Assembly: GCA_003577145.1 (NCBI GenBank)
Contig: QEUP01000029.1
Location: 1 to 41,170 of the forward strand
Source: Acidobacteriota bacterium
Lineage (GTDB): Bacteria > Actinomycetota > Acidimicrobiia > Acidimicrobiales > Microtrichaceae
Reading direction: 5' to 3'
Length of the DNA stretch: 41,170 bases
In this document: one piece after another, positions 2,432 through 39,111 of the stretch
Numbering within the stretch: the stretch's first letter is position 1
How the letters are laid out: each line of letters begins with the position of its first letter
Notes under the pieces: generated by a model
Seen by the model: only the letters and a program-made list of their open reading frames with translations
Told to the model about the DNA's origin: nothing
Databases searched by the model: none
Translations under genes and position numbers: made by a program

Positions 2432-2737
2432 GTGGACCAACCTGACCCCCGCCCCACGACATCGCCGAGTGCCCTGCCCTCGGTCCGAGCACGGCTCCTC
2501 GCGTTCTCGGCCATCGTCCTCGCAGGCTTGGCCGGGGGCTTCATCGGCTTCGCCTTCGCCGACTTCCAGTGTGAGGGAGCGTGCGGAGCCCACCAGGGCG
2601 TCGGCGCCATCTGCGGGGCATTGCTGGGCGCAGCAGGGGTGGCGGTGGTCTCCGTGCTGACGCTGAAGGCGATGGGAGAGTGGGGAACCATCCAGGGCCG
2701 GGATGAGGGTCATGAGATAGATCGAAACATCAGCTGA
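2432..2737 (+). CDS. Small membrane protein, two predicted helices
   Basis: 101 aa from GTG at 2432, with GGGAAAG just upstream. A TATCAT box at 2417-2422 could be its -10 element. An upstream ATG at 2421 is in another frame. A short Pro-rich N-terminus is followed by a helix (about 20-42, LLAFSAIVLAGLAGGFIGFA), a loop with two cysteines (CEGAC) and a second helix (about 58-82). The C-terminus is charged and cytoplasmic-like. It is divergent from the HTH regulator, and its last 8 bases overlap the end of the convergent PIG-L gene. I do not recognise the family. Confidence 0.6.
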   Translation: MDQPDPRPTTSPSALPSVRARLLAFSAIVLAGLAGGFIGFAFADFQCEGACGAHQGVGAICGALLGAAGVAVVSVLTLKAMGEWGTIQGRDEGHEIDRNIS

Positions 2738-3422
2738 ACGTCACGACCCTGAAGCTCTCGGCGTGACCCAGGCCCTCACGGCGGCCCTGCTCGGCTGTGC
2801 TCTCCCTCACGAGGTCGCCGACCAGATCCAATCGGTCGCCCAACTGGCTGCTGTGGCAGCTGAGCGCTTCGGCCTTGGCCTCCAGACTGCCCGACACGTC
2901 GATGAACGTGTCGGGTTCGAGCGTCCCCGAGAGATACACCGCTCGCACCTGATGCGCTGGACCGGTCCCGGGGAAATACAACGGGCTCGCCGCCGACGGG
3001 GCACACGAGTCGAGCACGGCCCAGCCCAGCTCCCGGTGATCGTGATGGTTCACATAGCCGCTACCGAAGAAGACAGCGGTGGGATCGTGGGTCAAGACGA
3101 CCTCAGGACGGAATTCGCGCACGGCTCGTACCAGCTCTTCGCGCAGGGTCGTGGTGTTCTCGATCTCGCCGTCGGCGAGGCCGAGGTTGAGGCGCTCACG
3201 GACACCGAGGACGCGATCGGCCGCGGCCGCCTCAGCGAGACGAATGGATGCCAGCTTCTCGGGGTCGACTTCAGGATCCAGCGAACCCTTCTCGCCCCGT
3301 GCGACCACCACGATGAGTATGTCCGCGCCGTCGCGGGCCCAGCCGATGAGCGTCCCCCCGCAGGCCACCTCGGGATCGTCGGGATGCGCATACACGGCGA
3401 GCGCCCGAGTGGGTGTGCTCAT
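2730..3422 (-). CDS. PIG-L/LmbE-family N-acetylglucosaminyl deacetylase-like protein
   Basis: 230 aa. It has the family hallmark AHPDD (residues 12-16), with His and Asp as zinc ligands and catalytic base, and a later HHDHRELG carrying the third zinc ligand. Family members are zinc deacetylases acting on GlcNAc-linked substrates (MshB of mycothiol and Mca-type amidases in Actinobacteria); the substrate here is not determinable. The ATG at 3422 is joined directly to a group II intron-like element (3423-3733), and a second ATG with a TAGGAT box lies beyond it. No Shine-Dalgarno sequence precedes the ATG at 3422, because the bases before it belong to the element's 3' end. The gene probably depends on that element for translation in some way. 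Confidence 0.9.
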   Translation of the reverse strand: MSTPTRALAVYAHPDDPEVACGGTLIGWARDGADILIVVVARGEKGSLDPEVDPEKLASIRLAEAAAADRVLGVRERLNLGLADGEIENTTTLREELVRAVREFRPEVVLTHDPTAVFFGSGYVNHHDHRELGWAVLDSCAPSAASPLYFPGTGPAHQVRAVYLSGTLEPDTFIDVSGSLEAKAEALSCHSSQLGDRLDLVGDLVRESTAEQGRREGLGHAESFRVVTFS

Positions 3423-3733
3423 TGGTAGTCAGGGGCGCGGTGACGTTGCCGGTCCGGTTCCCCATTCCCCTTTCAATCCGTGCGTGCGGTTTTCCCGCAC
3501 ACGGCTCACCGACGGTCTTCTGGACATGGTTACGCGGCCTTCGGGTAGCGGATGGTGCCCATTGAGCGGGGCGTCAAGAGCCTCTTCTTGGAGGGAGCAA
3601 GCGTGCGGGCCGTAGTGCCATCCGGCGCAGCCCGCCGCCTCTCGACGACGAACCGGGGCCTGCCACCGGGCGCTCCAGCGCCTACCCGGACGGGACTTGC
3701 ACCCGCAGGTCTGGTCCAGCCTTCAGGACGCAA
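3423..3733 (-). mobile_element. Group II intron-like mini-element at a start codon, copy 1
   Basis: Read on the minus strand, 311 nt lie between an upstream ATG (3736-3734) and the ATG of the PIG-L gene (3422-3420). The 5' end TTGCGTCCTG resembles the group II consensus GUGYG. It is followed by a CGGG-UGCAAGU-CCCG hairpin like the GUGCAAGUCC segment of intron domain I. Near the 3' end (plus 3475-3507) is a 33-nt hairpin like domain V: GAGCC opening with the AGC triad, CCGUG/CACGG lower stem, two-base CG bulge, UGCGG/CCGCA upper stem and a GAAAA loop. A domain-VI-like stem (AGGGG/CCCCU) follows and ends CUGACUACCAAU, giving the terminal AY. No reverse transcriptase is encoded. A 68-codon frame runs from the upstream ATG to 3530. 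Ends match copy 2 at 38953-39095. Confidence 0.6.
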
Positions 3734-3742
3734 CATGTTCGG

Positions 3743-3748
3743 ATCCTA
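3743..3748 (-). promoter_or_regulatory. TAGGAT -10 box upstream of copy 1 element
   Basis: On the minus strand TAGGAT fits the actinobacterial TAnnnT -10 and is followed after 6 nt by the ATG at 3736. Transcription would start at or near that ATG, so the RNA would begin with AUG and then the intron-like element. No good -35 is visible 16-18 nt upstream. Confidence 0.4.
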
Positions 3749-38367: not shown

Positions 38368-38952
38368 TCAGGCGGGGTCCACGACCCCGGAAGGGGACTC
38401 GGCGAGCGCGGTAGCAGGAGTGGTGGCCAGCCCGCCGGACTCCATCAGCTCCCGGACCGCGGGCACCGGGTCGATGTCGCCGAACAGCGCCCTGTCGGAG
38501 TAGTCGACCTCCCCCTCGGTGACGTCGTGCACCCACCAGGACGCCTCCAGAGCTATCCCCTCGGGATCGGTGAAGTAGATCGATCGGATGAAGCCGTGGT
38601 CGACCACCTCGGTCACCTCGCAGCCGTTCTCCTCGAGGCGGACACGAAGGGCTTCCAGCGCCTCCTCGTCGGGCAAGTCGAACGACACGTGATCGAACTG
38701 GATGGCACGCGGGTCGGGCACGCCCGCCGGCTTCGAGAACGTCTCGAGCTCGGCTCCGGTGTACTCGAAGAAGGCGATGGTGTTGCTCGGTCCGATCTCG
38801 AAGAAGTAGTGGCGGAACCCCGGCGCGGCGATCGTCGCCACCAGCCTCGCCCCGAGGACCCCGTGGTAGAAGCGCACCGTCGTGTCCATGTCGGTCGTGA
38901 TCAGCGCGAGGTGGTTGATACCGCCCCAGCGTGGTCGGTCCGTGTATGTCAT
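38368..38952 (-). CDS. VOC (glyoxalase/dioxygenase) superfamily protein
   Basis: 194 aa. Two beta-alpha-beta-beta-beta modules: the first begins GGINHLALITTDMDTTVRFYHGVLG, the second has FDHVSFDLPDEEALEALRVRL and ends IYFTDPEGIALEASWW. His13 or His14, an internal Glu, His of DHVSF and Glu of ALEAS give the normal metal site. The substrate is unknown; the family includes dioxygenases, glyoxalases and antibiotic-resistance proteins. The ATG at 38952 is joined directly to a group II intron-like element (38953-39095) and has no Shine-Dalgarno sequence of its own. It also overlaps, as ATGA, the stop of a 49-codon leader frame running through that element. Confidence 0.9.
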   Translation of the reverse strand: MTYTDRPRWGGINHLALITTDMDTTVRFYHGVLGARLVATIAAPGFRHYFFEIGPSNTIAFFEYTGAELETFSKPAGVPDPRAIQFDHVSFDLPDEEALEALRVRLEENGCEVTEVVDHGFIRSIYFTDPEGIALEASWWVHDVTEGEVDYSDRALFGDIDPVPAVRELMESGGLATTPATALAESPSGVVDPA

Positions 38953-39098
38953 TGGTAGTCAGGGGCGCTGCCCACGGTGCGAGCCCGCTTCCCCATCCCC
39001 CTTTCAATCCGTTCGGTTTCCCATACCCCGGGCTCTCCGGCGAGCACTCGGGCGCGACCCCCGCCCGCTGGTCTGGTCCGACTCTGAGGACGCACCAT
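38949..39098 (-). CDS. Possible 49-aa leader ORF spanning copy 2 element
   Basis: From the ATG at 39098 the frame stays open through the whole element and stops at TGA (38951-38949), overlapping the VOC start as ATGA. The beginning MVRPQSRTRPAG matches MLRPEGWTRPAG of the equivalent frame in copy 1 (3736-3530). Several differences between the two fall at third codon positions. It may be a translated leader peptide or just a consequence of the element's sequence. Confidence 0.3.
   Translation of the reverse strand: MVRPQSRTRPAGGGRARVLAGEPGVWETERIERGMGKRARTVGSAPDYQ
38953..39095 (-). mobile_element. Group II intron-like mini-element at a start codon, copy 2 (internally shortened)
   Basis: On the minus strand, 143 nt between an upstream ATG (39098-39096) and the VOC start codon. 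The 5' end is GTGCGTCC, exactly the group II GUGYG consensus; 26 of the first 34 bases match copy 1. A CGGGCG-GGGGUCG-CGCCCG hairpin follows. The domain-V-like segment (plus 39006-39035) is 30 nt and imperfect: GAGCC and GAAACC are kept but the stems are weaker. CGGATTGAAAGGGG and the last 17 bases before the start codon match copy 1. Most of what would be domains I-IV is gone and no protein of the intron type is encoded, so catalytic activity is doubtful. Confidence 0.55.
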
Positions 39099-39105
39099 GA
39101 TGCGA

Positions 39106-39111
39106 AGACTA
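39106..39111 (-). promoter_or_regulatory. TAGTCT -10 box upstream of copy 2 element
   Basis: TAGTCT on the minus strand is followed after seven bases by the ATG at 39098. As in copy 1, the RNA would start at this AUG and run straight into the element. No convincing -35. Confidence 0.35.

Follow-up and report, generated by a model that had tools for sequence, protein, structure and literature searches.

The window, by which we mean the whole stretch of 41,170 nt that was analysed, holds two copies of a short element on the minus strand, each running into the start codon of a protein-coding gene and each preceded by a -10-like box. Their features are listed below, with the evidence for each in brackets; L and G numbers denote individual loci and genomes.

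39106..39111, minus: TAGTCT, -10-like box 5′ of copy 2 (sequence; TANNNT box of the family)
39098 (5′ ATG) to 38950 (3′ ATG), minus: copy 2 as a whole, 149 nt
39096..39098, minus: 5′ ATG of copy 2, putative original VOC start codon and IBS1 of the intron (sequence; L146, L147)
38953..39095, minus: group II intron relic of copy 2, about 70 nt of the start of domain I joined to part of DV and DVI (blastn against full-length introns); it also takes in the ATG at 38950-38952 if the boundary is placed after RTG
38950..39015, minus: 3′ segment of copy 2, with a DV remnant, DVI and CTGACTACCAATG (blastn query 84-149; pattern match)
38950..38952, minus: 3′ ATG of copy 2, the current VOC start codon, of which the A or the whole codon would be intron-borne (3′ against 5′ codon counts; L080)
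38949..39098, minus: open frame of 49 codons from the 5′ ATG of copy 2 (translation)
38368..38952, minus: gene of the VOC/glyoxalase family, 3′ of copy 2 (ORF; Pfam PF00903)
3743..3748, minus: TAGGAT, -10-like box 5′ of copy 1 (sequence)
3736 (5′ ATG) to 3420 (3′ ATG), minus: copy 1 as a whole, 317 nt
3734..3736, minus: 5′ ATG of copy 1, putative original PIG-L start codon (sequence)
3619..3736, minus: 5′ part of domain I of copy 1, including the 5′ ATG (blastn query 1-118 against L130; Rfam group-II-D1D4-4, 30.8 bits)
3563..3615, minus: inverted inner piece of domain I in copy 1, about 53 nt (blastn query 122-174 equals L130 intron 158-108 reversed)
3420..3567, minus: 3′ part of copy 1, with the end of the RT frame (..GTIRYPKAA-stop), DV, DVI and CTGACTACCAATG (blastn query 170-317 against L042; Rfam Intron_gpII)
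2730..3422, minus: gene of the PIG-L deacetylase family, 3′ of copy 1 (ORF; Pfam PF02585)

The genes 3′ of the two copies are unrelated by Pfam (Glyoxalase/VOC, PF00903, and PIG-L, PF02585), and the preliminary description of this DNA was right to recognise in copy 2 a second element of the same family at the start codon of an unrelated gene. The identical 20-nt stretch that it reported to run into the VOC start codon, GCGCCCCTGACTACCAATGA, is found at exactly two places in the window with up to three mismatches allowed (3419-3438 and 38949-38968, both on the minus strand) and in none of 100 shuffles. The common design that it proposed is borne out for the TANNNT box and the ATG, but the 7-nt spacer belongs to copy 2 alone (TAGTCT-7-ATG), copy 1 having 6 nt (TAGGAT-6-ATG). 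At the 5′ end, copy 2 reads GTGCGTCC and copy 1 TTGCGTCC. Elsewhere in the window, positions 258-449 and 580-684 hold short direct repeats of 72 nt (two copies) and 42 nt (three copies).

Both copies are reduced. By blastn against full-length introns, copy 2 (compared with L042) retains about intron nt 1-71 and the last ~65 nt, and has indeed lost most of its middle; copy 1 retains about nt 1-115 and the last ~148 nt, with the inverted domain I piece between them. At gathering thresholds Rfam reports nothing in the window. Permissively searched, copy 1 matches Intron_gpII at 3428-3509 (36.1 bits, E 1.6e-5, below the gathering score of 40) and group-II-D1D4-4 below its gathering score of 49, and a weak plus-strand match lies over its inverted piece (3546-3620, 17.1 bits). 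Copy 2 gives no Rfam group II match; a sub-threshold CRISPR-DR19 match at 39017-39053 on the plus strand (24 of 40 bits) was dismissed as chance. The EBS1 hairpin discussed below is absent from both window copies, as is the RT in the blastn comparison. A search of the assembly (4.05 Mb, 96.6% complete) gave no other copy that we find convincing, the remaining six matches having E 0.6, and the family RT found no match in this genome in a search run without a positive control. The two copies are internally deleted group II intron relics, and look dead. The suggestion that copy 2 is a non-autonomous mobile derivative is therefore not supported: EBS1 hairpin and RT are gone from both copies, copy 1 is rearranged, and the search just described returned no RT that might act in trans.

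To place these remains, it is helpful to consider how the family is distributed. A first 3′ pattern, TTGAAAGGGG-N20..50-CTGACTAC, matched 7 of 148 genomes, the window's own included, at 12 places, all 12 of them followed by CA-ATG or CA-GTG. A stricter 3′ pattern, in which the flank played no part, was then applied to a collection of 84,980 species (contigs of at least 3 kb) and yielded 115 stretches, every one under an actinobacterial record title, at least five of which coincide with places from the scan of 148 genomes. The bases next to the 3′ end were A-ATG in 112, G-ATG in one and A-GTG in two, accounting for all 115. In 106 of these the codon opens a frame of at least 50 codons; of the other nine, four are cut by an end and five (L086, L091, L108, L121, L138) stop within 17 codons. 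The family is thus defined by a strict 3′ pattern, and diverged members with other habits may escape it. Indeed, a full-length copy on a plasmid of Embleya sp. NBC_00896 (L141), where the PLSDB table carries no feature, has the different 3′ end CCAACTACC-AATG, so the scan pattern misses some family members. Plasmid relatives L142-L144 have RTs of 43-49% identity and other 3′ ends (CCGACCCTAC; CCTGACCCTGC in Leptospira). Viral contigs gave no match to the 3′ pattern. A 5′ pattern matched once in a phylum sample of 396 genomes, so either the family is patchy or this pattern is strict. The 3′ pattern of a sister-type intron matched none of 61 genomes of G170's genus, a result uninformative as a control.

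Full-length copies with both ends, 1.96-2.0 kb long, were found in 21 rows (20 loci and the Embleya plasmid copy), and it is these that supply the RT-bearing relatives sharing both ends which the preliminary description had proposed to look for. In 20 of the 21 rows an uninterrupted frame of 300 codons or more contains YADD; the frame of L107 stops early. In all three RTs examined we found RVT_1 and GIIM (Pfam) and a TIGR04416 score of 396-427 bits (cut-off 300), and no endonuclease domain among the domains found; the best solved relatives by phmmer are 7uim_D, a group II intron RT/maturase, and 6ar1, the GsI-IIC RT. On the RNA side, all four full-length loci searched match RF02003 (group-II-D1D4-4) with 73.6-88.9 bits (gathering 49), and the same four miss the gathering score of the Rfam DV-DVI model (Intron_gpII). 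The consensus fold of the 3′ end, computed from 66 distinct rows after both window rows, L034 and L055 had been dropped, shows a DV hairpin and DVI, with stems kept through two-sided changes (GC/CG/AU) and a bulged A in the basal helix of DVI; the invariance of this helix is partly imposed, because the scan pattern fixes part of its bases. Ribozyme domains, RT and a folded DV/DVI together identify a family of mobile group II introns, of which the window copies are relics. A conserved RNA directly 5′ of start codons, represented in the window by copies without an RT, might also suggest a leader or riboswitch-like regulatory RNA, domesticated from a group II intron and immobile. We regard this as highly improbable, given the YADD-bearing RT frames in nearly all full-length rows, the several unrelated sites occupied per genome, and the orthologous genes that lack the intron.

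Such empty sites are informative with respect to the target. VOC orthologs without intron (L146 and L147) read TACCGT-N6/N5-ATG-gene, and an uninterrupted box and start codon was also seen for DedA (L175), queA (L193) and a relB-like gene (L196). By a regular expression that left several loci unread, motif-bearing starts were present at 5/9 loci for purL, 2/3 for DedA, 1/4 for queA, 1/2 for the relB-like gene and 0/2 for an arsR-like gene, and at 2/8 loci for PIG-L, there at different starts. The occupied sites agree. Using an anchor that does not include the codon, and leaving out sites with less than 12 nt of flank, we obtained 59 distinct 5′ junctions, all of which end in RTG (43 ATG, 16 GTG); TANNNT lies 6-8 nt upstream in 57 of them (6 nt in 35, 7 nt in 20, 8 nt in two), the exceptions being L258 and L283. 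With window copy 2 and L141 added, the figures become 61/61 for RTG and 59/61 for the box, against a background of 192 among 39,765 RTG (0.48%) with a box at 6-8 nt in loci L025-L140. Copies are thus non-randomly placed with respect to start codons at both ends, in keeping with the preliminary description. The alignment covers 46 positions as far as the last base of the box, and none of them rises above 0.5 bit apart from the T, A and T of TANNNT; beyond the box, constraint is confined to RTG and the base before it (C in 51/61). The aligned flanks contain no -35 signal, and the aligned sites share no long conserved homing target of 20-35 bp. Promoters of M. tuberculosis, leaderless and other, are described as having TANNNT, no -35, a purine start, C at -1 and T at +2 (PMC3898074).

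The introns interrupt, at codon 1, purL (in two lineages), holA, nadD, ddl, gatC, smpB, queA and miaB; nine of ten proteins of interrupted genes received their names from matches exceeding a curated cut-off, and the remaining one, a truncated piece at L063, has no match at E 1e-20. The purL copies are those of L016, from a genome of the window's order, and L045, from a Mycobacterium MAG. Whichever of these genes the cell needs must be expressed, by splicing or from an intron-borne ATG. It could accordingly be argued that insertion is much less specific than it appears and that only copies at leaderless start codons survive, where both codons are kept and expression persists; the interruption of housekeeping genes does mean that retained expression must matter. 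Nevertheless, insertion between genes or at dispensable sites would be tolerated, and yet an ATG or GTG follows directly in all 115 stretches, and survival alone does not predict the covariation of intron loop and target described below. Selection on survivors as the sole explanation is therefore very unlikely.

The target appears to be read more narrowly than as any leaderless start. As a control we used 68 leaderless-like, intron-less starts from L025-L140, which replace a set of 176 starts containing repeated orthologs. T after the 3′ codon was found at none of 112 distinct 3′ sites (L025-L139) as compared with 9/68 control starts (p 1e-4), and the C before the codon, so frequent in targets, at only 36/68 (p 3e-4). 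C before TANNNT was found at 32/61 targets and 20/68 control starts, a preference which this control weakens (p 0.01). Preferences beyond TANNNT-SRTG have no explanation in a model of start-codon targeting, and we count them against it. The last of them is also a weak hint that the RNP, through the RT protein or domain I, reads TANNNT as a DNA sequence, promoter activity being irrelevant. This is a real possibility, which we would place somewhat short of even. As a parallel, the RTs of other introns recognise bases 5′ of IBS1. Against it, a rigid reading by protein would not be expected to vary in distance. The spacing of box and codon does vary, as transcription start site spacing does, and the lack of a -35 signal likewise resembles the promoters described for M. 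tuberculosis (PMC3898074).

Where exactly the intron begins and ends bears on which start codon is used. In aligned copies UGCG or UGCA follows the first base, and the ends depart from the GUGYG...AY rule whichever boundary is chosen: if it is placed after RTG, most copies begin with U1 and the 3′ end is UG; if it is placed after RT, the ends are G1 and AU, but with one base extra before UGCG. Because TG is present at both junctions, the exact boundary may lie after R, after RT or after RTG. We take the 5′ R to be exon and the 3′ A to be intron, since the codon is ATG in 113/115 cases on the 3′ side compared with 45/61 on the 5′ side, and in view of L080. At this locus of Mycolicibacterium austroafricanum, GTG lies 5′ of the intron and ATG at its 3′ end; in the 14 of 25 loci that were read for relatives of its gene, the start is GTG in ten, the four best-scoring among them, and ATG in four, some of the ATG relatives having similar identity. 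The intron ends in CTGACTACC-A-ATG, and there is therefore an in-frame start codon at the 3′ junction as well. RTG at both ends would also be expected from a DNA transposon or a recombination product with a 3-bp target duplication. However, a 5′ GTG is combined with a 3′ ATG not only in L080 but also in L083 (of Streptomyces corynorhini), L092, L123 and L128, most of the relatives read for the L080 gene have GTG, and ribozyme domains and a maturase RT are present, leaving this explanation barely credible.

The aligned 5′ parts contain a conserved hairpin, GCCG-(C)UCAYK...-CGGC, whose closing pair changes from G-C to C-G in some lineages; its pattern was found in 3 of 24 genomes, many of those assemblies stopping inside the intron. 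We take this domain I loop, UCAYK, as EBS1 and S-R-T-G as IBS1. At 35 junctions loop and codon could be compared. The loop was CAC at eight junctions, all with GTG, and CAU at 22 with ATG and four with GTG (a G-U pair); L140 has CCU with ATG. The next loop base was G with C before the codon in 25 of 26 rows (L103 has G with G), U with G in 8/8, and A with C once (L042). Fisher tests gave p 2e-5 for the codon and 3e-6 for the next base, values that ignore kinship among rows which are not independent: G585, where the loop CACU faces G-GTG each time, supplies six of the eight CAC/GTG rows, and by lineage the association is 3/3 (L042, L107, G585). Further, in 14 of the 35 rows the loop was assigned per genome from another copy or reading (six in G585, five in G592, three in G078). 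Read separately, L028, L083 and L141 have CAUG with C-ATG, C-GTG and C-ATG. Since the loop complements S-R-T-G, EBS1 would read the start codon in much the manner of an initiator anticodon. Of the two explanations first offered for the shared position, the start codon as target and the survival of such insertions only, the covariation of loop and codon favours the former. A 3′ GTG is found in L042 and L107, both with loop CAC, and in two copies of G041, where both 5′ junctions are GTG and no EBS1 loop was found. No 3′ GTG occurs without a GTG at the 5′ junction as well, and in these cases the loop is CAC where readable; G585, with CAC, retains ATG. EBS1 may pair with the intron's own 3′ end too.

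Judged from these alignments, the junctions show the intron to lie behind a natural RTG, 6-8 nt past TANNNT, with a loop complementary to S-R-T-G. The window elements are thus very probably relics of a group of mobile introns in Actinomycetota, group II introns whose retrotransposition is directed at the start codons of leaderless genes. Under this reading, transcription from the host promoter would begin at the R of the codon (+1) and run through the intron, and the RT would be made from that transcript, perhaps through reinitiation after the reading frame that the host RTG opens. With the pairing of EBS1 and (S)RUG as its guide, splicing would restore 5′-RUG-codon 2, the original leaderless message, and the lariat RNP would reverse-splice at SRTG in a further leaderless promoter, entering the sense strand. 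The 5′ exon of 2-4 nt so predicted is much shorter than is usual for group II introns, which counts against the model. Recognition in DNA is favoured, because the pairing includes the -1 base, which is absent from a transcript starting at R.

How the DNA is opened is a matter on which we offer only a tentative proposal, plausible but less likely than not: an RNP without endonuclease may reverse-splice into the non-template strand that RNA polymerase exposes at the leaderless promoter, with an anti-start-codon EBS1 of 4 nt that pairs at -1 to +3, so that the 5′ exon is roughly the start codon itself. Promoter and start codon would both be borrowed from the host. The conjecture that the promoter bubble is the target, an open promoter offering a single strand at -1 to +3, is drawn by likeness to RmInt1, an intron lacking an endonuclease which is described as using single-stranded DNA at replication (PMC3898094).

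We compared the reading frame starting from the host RTG, which passes through domain I, with the position of the RT. In 12 of the 20 full-length copies with an RT frame, its TGA overlaps a possible RT start (GTGA); in six it ends within 7 nt of one, in L039 it is fused to the RT, and in L043 it ends far off. Given the conservation of domain I, the copies do not count as independent cases, and the RT starts are candidates. The overlap lies at about intron nt 370, for instance in L130, L083 and L107. A conserved protein encoded by the host-RTG frame was considered and rejected, the middle being read in different frames among copies. In the window, the 49-codon frame of copy 2 ends in a TGA that overlaps the VOC ATG (ATGA), and a translational coupling that keeps the VOC gene translated is possible. 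The corresponding frame of copy 1 ends 109 nt before the end of CTACC. Lacking EBS1 and RT, the window copies would neither splice by EBS1 pairing nor move by themselves, and their genes would then be read from the intron-borne ATG. This is probably how both are translated, possibly with coupling through ATGA in the case of copy 2.

Several known systems invite comparison. Group IIC introns insert after intrinsic terminators or at attC (PMC3898094; PMC4424553). The present family resembles them in having an RT without endonuclease domain, a short IBS1 and many unrelated sites tied to a gene-expression signal, a comparison made by features rather than by placing the RT in a class on a tree. It differs from them in that the signal is a -10-like box with a start codon, which EBS1 reads. 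The position directly 5′ of the site, where group IIC introns have a hairpin, is occupied by TANNNT-N6-8-RTG in 59/61 junctions. The absence of an endonuclease domain is shared with RmInt1-type group IIB introns; RmInt1, however, is described as pairing through IBS1, IBS2 and IBS3, whereas the sites of this family share only SRTG and TANNNT. The empty target has the same architecture as that reported for actinobacterial leaderless genes, including C at -1 and T at +2 (PMC3898074); unlike a plain leaderless gene, the occupied site holds an intron that brings a second start codon. Boundaries off GUGYG/AY are also known from introns with shifted splice sites such as C. tetani C.te.I1, whose shift has been linked to altered exon pairing, and in the account given there such introns are connected with neither start codons nor promoters (PMC4424553).

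The same review, from 2015, sets out three target specificities for bacterial group II introns, namely homing sites, terminators and attC (PMC4424553). By its ribozyme and RT the family described here is a group II intron, and its target specificity lies outside those three as the review gives them. Among the matches listed for the open-licence PMC literature, none describes start-codon-specific group II introns, which is no proof of their being unpublished.

In conclusion, if the reading given here is true, specificity for start codons and leaderless promoters would be a fourth kind, present across a whole phylum. EBS1 acting as an anti-start-codon would be a reading mechanism that a single base change can test. 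This raises the questions of whether splicing can proceed with a 5′ exon of 2-4 nt, whether an endonuclease-less intron can use a promoter bubble, and how purL, smpB and other housekeeping genes stay expressed. Such introns would further provide a natural marker for leaderless starts in uncultured actinobacteria, and possibly a tool for insertion at start codons.
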